A stretch of 64,000 nucleotides of DNA from an uncultured Poribacteria bacterium (GTDB taxonomy: Bacteria > Poribacteria > WGA-4E > WGA-3G). The stretch is from the NCBI GenBank assembly GCA_951828385.1, contig OX639973.1, positions 3,277,200 through 3,341,199 on the forward strand, read 5' to 3'. The position numbers were made by a program, and so were the translations under genes. Each line of letters opens with the position of its first letter. Positions within the stretch are counted from its first letter, which is position 1. Shown piece after piece: positions 16,059-16,671 of the stretch. The notes beneath the pieces are model-generated. The model saw only the letters and a list, made by a program, of their open reading frames with translations, was not told where the DNA came from and did no database searches.

Positions 16059-16671
16059 TTAACAGTTTCCAGTTAACAGTTTTCAGTTAATACTCCTCAA
16101 CGCCAGTTTGATTAATCATTTCGGATATGTTGCTGGTTCTATTTCCGCATCATAGGGTATCCGTGAATCGTAGCACACACTGTTAGTTTGTGGGGTATAC
16201 AGCACAAAATTAACAGTGGACGCTACATAATCCAACTTTATACCAAATTCACGTTACCATAGGAGAAGATATGCAGGATTTTAAGAAGTTGCAAGTTTGG
16301 CAAAAATCTCATGATTTAACGTTGAGGATGTATGAGTTGACATCTCGATTTCCTCGCGAAGAGATGTATGGACTGACAAACCAAATTCGTCGTGCGTGTG
16401 CATCGATTCCAACAAATATCGCTGAAGGCTGTGGCAGGGGCAGCTCTGCTGACTTTGCGCGTTTCCTTCACATAGCAATGGGTTCAGCGAATGAAACAGA
16501 ATATCTCATTCTCCTTGCTCGCGACCTAAAGTACCTTGATACAGATCTGTTTGCTGGGTTAATGGACACAATAATTGAGGTGAGGAAGATGCTAACCTCT
16601 TTACTGCGGAGGCTAAAAACGACTAACTGATTACTGGAAACTGGAAACTGGAAACTGGAAACTGACTACTT
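16059..16671 (+). mobile_element. A/B-gap repeat element, copy 4 (full length)
   Basis: Left arm 16059-16091 consists of cagttaa/cagttt units and right arm 16622-16668 of ggaaact units; the arms are complementary. Between them lies about 180 bases of leader and an intact four-helix-bundle gene. The right arm even supplies the gene's TGA stop. This is the putative parent of the shortened copies 1-3. The mechanism of spread is unknown: no transposase is encoded. Confidence 0.7.
16271..16630 (+). CDS. Four-helix-bundle protein (23S-IVS / Avd-like family)
   Basis: 119 residues with the family signature: DFKKLQVWQKSHDL at the start, then RRACASIPTNIAEGCGRGS near 45 and ANETEYLILLARDL near 75. Members (TIGR02436) are encoded in intervening sequences of 23S rRNA genes and are related to the Avd subunit of diversity-generating retroelements; they form pentameric helical barrels that may bind nucleic acid. 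Here the gene lies inside a permease operon, flanked by complementary heptad repeats. AGGAG precedes the ATG by 5 bases. No reverse transcriptase is present in the window. Its role in moving or maintaining the flanking repeats is inference. Confidence 0.88.
   Translation: MQDFKKLQVWQKSHDLTLRMYELTSRFPREEMYGLTNQIRRACASIPTNIAEGCGRGSSADFARFLHIAMGSANETEYLILLARDLKYLDTDLFAGLMDTIIEVRKMLTSLLRRLKTTN

Follow-up and report, generated by a model that had tools for sequence, protein, structure and literature searches.

The window, a 64,000-nt stretch of a genome from an uncultured Poribacteria bacterium (contig OX639973.1, positions 3277200-3341199), contains four A and three B genes arranged in tandem at window positions 6949-18072. 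By their sequences both gene types appear to be ABC permease-like and paired with one another; the A family is matched 19 times in the same genome and 4-22 times in each relative within the genus. Between the third B gene (B3, 14560-16053), whose stop codon ends at 16053, and the fourth A gene (A4), whose start codon is at 16672, lies an insert on the forward strand (16054-16671). Its left arm (16063-16088, forward strand) consists of four CAGTT units at a 7-nt pitch (CAGTTTCCAGTTAACAGTTTTCAGTT), and its right arm (16625-16664, forward strand) of five AACTG units at a pitch of 7 or 14 nt, the last of which stops 7 nt short of the A4 start codon. The full units are CAGTTNN on the left and NNAACTG on the right, the two arms forming inverted heptad arrays. 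Between them is a gene of the S23/IVP family encoding a four-helix-bundle protein of 119 residues (16271-16630, forward strand), whose stop codon is supplied by the right arm as the TGA within AACTGAT, the first right-arm unit. An earlier note on this DNA had described an intact gene lying between reverse-complementary heptad arms and terminated by the right arm, and both observations were borne out. The 5' part of the element contains a ~155-bp dispersed repeat (16099-16256, forward strand) with ~18 further copies in the genome at 78-89% identity; it was missing in the orthologous elements L045 and L059. Genome-wide, the heptad pattern AACTGNNAACTGNNAACTG occurred 138 times and the same pattern reversed 0 times, an abundance far beyond chance.

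The gene matched PF05635 (23S_rRNA_IVP) over its full length (E 3e-41, 140 bits against a cut-off of 33.8) and TIGR02436 (four helix bundle protein, E 8e-40). The match to the Avd model fell below its cut-off (24.6 bits versus 80). Judged by these models, the protein belongs fully to S23/IVP and is only remotely akin to Avd, which sharpens the previous description of an Avd/IVS-like bundle. The accompanying statement that no mobility enzyme is encoded was accurate: S23/IVP is the sole gene of the element, and no nuclease, recombinase, transposase or reverse transcriptase (RT) was found in it. Pairs of orthologues had dN/dS values of 0.03-0.20, with one pair at 0, a signature of purifying selection which indicates that the protein is used. 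Residues S45, N49, E52, S72, E75, R41 and R56 were nearly invariant over 113 sequences. The structure homologues 2gsc and 2rld were each deposited with five chains, and the Xanthomonas homologue has been described as a toroidal homopentamer (PMC4990558). The usual arm size of ~4-6 units would fit one unit per subunit of such a pentamer. A second family copy in the same genome (L009) lies between inverted arrays of another heptad, ATAAGTT/AACTTAT. In a further family member, L046, an inner hairpin (CTTAACTA...TAGTTAAG, 1440-1490) was located immediately 5' of the start of the S23 gene, where it could occlude the ribosome binding site. Phage records contained no match, leaving carriage by phages unsupported.

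The three other gaps of the array, each of which precedes an A gene, had been regarded as carrying shortened versions of this element. Heptad arms were present in each, at 6923-6941 in gap 1 (6860-6948), 9938-9963 in gap 2 (9861-9970) and 12991-13107 in gap 3 (12913-13128), all on the forward strand, but they surround a common non-coding 39-nt hairpin core (AAGAGAAGAAGG...CCCTCTTCTCT) unlike that of the gene-bearing element, so the gaps do not hold simple shortened copies. The core with its arms, which occupies the whole of gaps 1 and 2, where there is no gene, and 12913-13016 in gap 3, looks like a separate gene-less element. The reported piece of the S23/IVP gene in gap 3 was present, in a remnant of 105 bp (13017-13121, 90% identical) that includes the 3' end of the gene.

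Arrays without the gene were found elsewhere as well. In the window, CAGTT arrays at 25721-25755 and an AACTG array at 25920-25938 form a gene-less inverted pair (25721-25938) between two minus-strand genes, and most of the AACTG arrays examined in this genome were one half of an inward-facing inverted pair that was intergenic and often started at a stop codon. Inverted period-7 pairs numbered 8, 12 and 8 per 400-kb sample in three gene-bearing genomes, compared with 2 and 1 in two gene-less genomes, and one array type had a median of 21 in gene-bearing versus 8 in gene-less genomes (p 0.016). Arrays were more numerous than S23 genes, and the numbers of the two showed no dose relation (Spearman 0.19, p 0.25). 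Since arrays persist in genomes that have no S23 gene, they outlive it.

Within the genus, period-7 arrays were present on both sides of the S23/IVP gene at 28 of 30 loci, as opposed to none of the 27 loci of a control small-gene family, PF02604 (Fisher p 3e-14). Outside Poribacteria we studied the 80 best matches to a Poribacteria-led alignment, a query that under-samples very divergent S23 clades, together with ten plasmid records. Arrays of period 7 or 8 on both sides were identified at 54 of 79 loci and at 3 of 118 control ORFs; seven other periods combined gave 1/79. Under one scoring rule, both-side arrays of period 7 or 8 were found at 76 of 105 loci, which are not phylogenetically independent, versus 3 of 82 neighbouring ORFs and 0 shuffled flanks. 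A looser rule identified arms at 105 of 113 loci, and most of the others show weak arms by eye. The possibility that family members in relatives would lack such arms can be set aside on these counts. Whether the arms are equally common away from the gene has a divided answer, as gene-less inverted pairs are common, whereas the control gene family had no both-side arrays.

Among the matches listed, period-7 arrays surrounded the family in the genus and in 16 phyla, and the family tree has many changes of phylum along it. The right-arm consensus across loci is C-T-N-A-N-A-R, the units themselves vary (AACTGNN, AACCGAY, AGCGAAY, GCTGACG, TCTTTGT and CCACTAT), and some lineages have a period of 8. 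The period clusters on the tree yet switches between 7 and 8 nine times, which rules out a protein that strictly sets it. One Flavobacteriia clade (L107, L118, L121, L128 and L149) occupies a single junction before an RluA-like gene and has TTAGA/TCTAA cores spaced 8-9 nt. Of two divergent S23-like subgroups in the genus, L268-L271 have TTTGCAAGTGTGCTAAAG-type arms (~9-10 or 20 nt) and L272-L275 have GGAAG arrays in both orientations.

Neighbour orientations and junction distances, which were derived from simple ORF calls, showed that the loci with co-directional neighbours comprised 83 in sense and 3 in antisense orientation. The array started at a median of -2 nt from the upstream stop codon and ended at a median of 5 nt from the downstream start codon; at 57 of 79 loci the arrays were within 15 nt of these codons on both sides. 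At the junction occupied in the window, four relatives (L234, L239, L240 and L247) have only 2-5 bp from stop to start, and 18 other genomes have inserts of 105-708 bp, of which nearly all have heptad arms, whether the gene is there or not. A second junction precedes a gene whose N-terminus leads us to regard it as diacylglycerol-kinase-like; this junction was empty in 13 of 30 genomes, with stop and start codons mostly overlapping. Empty sites, which the earlier note had proposed looking for, were therefore seen at both junctions, and we infer the empty state to be ancestral. At a third junction, of the 29 sites read none was tightly empty, and L164 and L179 are without heptads there. No target duplication was evident between filled and empty sites, at which the arrays blur the junctions. 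Three elements (L004, L249 and L250) are internal-deletion derivatives that retain both ends. In L187, L203, L198 and L205 unrelated palindromic inserts replace the heptad elements at the second junction, indicating that such junctions receive several repeat families.

The element of the window sits between two ABC permease genes, outside 23S rRNA. One locus on an Azospirillum plasmid record (L217) is within 23S rRNA, with Rfam RF02541 spanning the locus, and has the same inverted heptad arms; its insertion point is presumably the helix-45 region. As a 23S rRNA intervening sequence (IVS) with these arms, it connects the elements of operons with the intervening sequences classically known from rRNA. 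A further type of site was a conjugation region on cyanobacterial plasmids. Armed S23/IVP genes were also observed in cas operons of cyanobacterial plasmids (L213, L214 and L215), between cas6 and cas4 and between cas10 and a gene of cmr3 type.

Left and right consensus units matched better as reverse complements than as direct copies at 57 of 70 period-7 loci and all 12 period-8 loci. At the RNA level, the left arm paired over half or more of its length with its own right arm in 61 of 89 elements, versus 15 of 89 when arms were swapped or shuffled, and in the predicted fold of the window element the arms, which pair with each other, are the closing stem (z -4.27). Units differed between sites within one genome and by species at each site, and an element's own arms fitted each other better than swapped ones (permutations as good: 0/2000, 0/2000 and 13/2000). 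Gene-bearing and gene-less elements at site 1 have a common inner sequence and almost unchanged flanks; one group has AACTTAT and the second AACTGAY in all four right units, and the left arm differs to match. The gene of L041 falls in the site-1 clade, yet its arms are GTTGTCG rather than ATAAGTT, so rewriting in place on both sides is the most likely explanation.

In the gene tree, the copies at each of the three sites formed one clade, which indicates that the gene mostly stayed put and that movement between sites was rare or old; active hopping between sites in the genus is unsupported for the same reason. The suggestion that the locus behaves like an element, with a parent and derivatives as in autonomous elements and MITEs, was thus upheld in part. 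Arms across the family, empty sites, deletion derivatives with both ends and gene-less pairs throughout the genome agree with it, whereas the single clade per site and the lack of a visible target duplication do not fit an active hopping pair. Insertion, derivatives and spread were seen, and movement would have been rare or old.

Co-occurrence with an RT, another point that the earlier note had raised, was weak: an RT was present in 19 of 31 gene-bearing versus 1 of 7 gene-less genomes (p 0.04), a difference for which the size of the genomes or their load of mobile elements may account. The single RVT_1 RT of the genome studied here (G000:C1:472587-473570; L210, L211) is far from the window (3277200-3341199), and no RT adjoined the S23/IVP gene in the loci read. 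RVT_1 had no match in 12 of the 31 gene-bearing genomes, several of which are 95-96% complete. An RT as obligatory partner was rejected on this count, and an RT is not required for the element to reside in a genome.

Our preferred interpretation, which we hold with somewhat more belief than doubt, is that this is an IVS-type selfish element of operon junctions. The sequences show that the unit is an S23/IVP gene between inverted tandem arrays of 7 nt, or 8 or 9 nt in some lineages, which fits exactly from stop to start between cistrons in the sense orientation, or lies inside 23S rRNA. The arms of each element are complementary and are predicted to close the stem of its RNA; between orthologous copies they evidently change in concert on both sides, and gene-less versions keep complementary arms. 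The element would be co-transcribed with its host operon or rRNA, after which the arms would fold back and RNase III would excise the insert from the host RNA, making it tolerable within an operon or a ribosomal RNA. Such excision is experimental for rRNA IVSs and is proposed outside rRNA by analogy. The pentameric S23/IVP ring may bind the single-stranded repeats, probably with some one unit to each subunit; this would account for a near-constant period combined with a free sequence. Repeats bound by the protein might, along with host factors, promote rare reinsertion at junctions and copying between arms. Against this interpretation, the single clade per site gives little indication of recent movement, no target duplication was seen, the element encodes no nuclease, recombinase or RT, the switches of period show that the protein does not set it rigidly, and the sense bias and the fit to junctions could be the product of pure selection. 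We also tentatively consider a more specific proposal, to which we give distinctly less than even credence: that these elements form a widespread, sequence-blind selfish class with a ring protein that recognises single-stranded units of 7-8 nt by their repeat period, and that they settle in stop-start junctions and rRNA via their sense transcript and have their arms rewritten together, with no recombinase or RT of their own.

Other explanations have to be weighed against the same data. The abutment of right arms on start codons, the purifying selection on the gene and the pentameric rings of its homologues would also suit a host regulator: S23/IVP would bind RNA as a ring in the manner of TRAP, controlling its targets through the arrays at start codons and its own expression through those around its gene; a translational role for TAACTGA repeats was proposed by MacGregor 2015 (PMC4679880). 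We regard this as unlikely, as the units vary among the sites of a genome and, at a given site, among species, arrays are kept in genomes without the gene, the same operons have empty sites, and the package also occurs in 23S rRNA, which offers no mRNA to control. Somewhat less probable again is a retroelement acting in trans, in which S23/IVP, like its remote relative Avd, would recruit an RT encoded elsewhere and move via sense RNA. The 83:3 sense bias, the weak similarity to the Avd model and the uneven RT distribution speak for such a partnership; the gene-bearing genomes with no RVT_1 match, the lack of an RT beside the gene in the loci read and the sub-threshold Avd scores speak against it.

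That some transposase acts on the hairpin ends, moving an ordinary DNA transposon and its MITE, is improbable in our estimation: inverted ends, gene-less and internally deleted derivatives and empty sites are all as expected of such a pair, but the end sequences vary between copies, no target duplication was seen, the element has no transposase and it is placed in the sense orientation only. We give least weight of all to the notion that slippage and template switching at operon junctions generated heptad hairpins with the S23 gene as a passenger. Template switching in a hairpin fits the concerted change of the arms, and arrays do outnumber genes; the association nevertheless extends over 16 phyla, is missing from control genes of the same genomes and is not enriched at other periods (1/79).

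The reading of an IVS-type selfish element is also informed by known systems. In Coxiella, the IVS reportedly has heptameric repeats beside the S23p ORF and 28-bp terminal inverted repeats, and is excised by RNase III (PMC4990558). With the 23S rRNA IVSs of Coxiella, Leptospira and others, our elements share the protein family, stem-forming complementary ends, the sense orientation and the lack of a mobility enzyme. They differ in having tandem arrays on both sides, locus-specific units and abundant gene-less copies, and in that the window element and nearly all its relatives are between operon genes, with only L217 in rRNA. By analogy the window copy would work like an rRNA IVS, but it is not one, as it lies outside rRNA. 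In the open-access literature, we found no paper linking S23 genes to tandem-repeat arms generally, the Coxiella paper describing heptamers in one IVS.

The TAACTGA direct repeats of Beggiatoaceae, Cyanobacteria and Bacteroidetes are intergenic and mostly just 5' of start codons, at sites with few canonical ribosome binding sites; MacGregor named no linked gene, reported almost no inverted partner and asked if a repeat-binding protein might be a mobile element (MacGregor 2015, PMC4679880). The right arm of the window element likewise has AACTG-core heptads directly 5' of a start codon, that of A4, but the arrays described here belong to inverted pairs tied to an S23/IVP gene, and units other than TAACTGA occur in them. 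By analogy from a sample taken outside the Beggiatoaceae, the S23/IVP element would explain the position of MacGregor's repeats. The Avd of diversity-generating retroelements (DGRs) resembles S23/IVP in its remote sequence similarity and four-helix-bundle family, but our loci have neither an adjacent RT nor template and variable repeats. MITEs and REP-type intergenic repeats, too, are short hairpins that lie between cistrons, are transcribed and have gene-less derivatives; our elements have no transposase, and their arms are tandem arrays of variable sequence and near-constant period. As in DNA transposons and MITEs, internal-deletion derivatives keep both ends, but although the ends are inverted, the terminal unit sequence is not conserved among copies.

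What is new here is that the S23 family, formerly known from rRNA inserts, is packaged with inverted 7-8-nt arrays across 16 phyla, an association which the comparison of loci confirms and generalises. If our preferred interpretation is true, many genes, some of them in cas and conjugation operons, that carry the annotation "four helix bundle protein" or "S23 ribosomal protein" would be passengers of an element and not parts of their host operons. The TAACTGA heptad repeats and the question of where the S23-bearing inserts of 23S rRNA came from, both puzzles of long standing, would then be connected, and if recognition by period is correct the repeats and the rRNA inserts would be the two faces of one class. 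The interpretation would also give a protein family of unknown function a testable job, the binding of arrays of 7-8-nt units. Two complementary arrays that lie apart yet change in concert are unusual, and the process is accessible to experiment.
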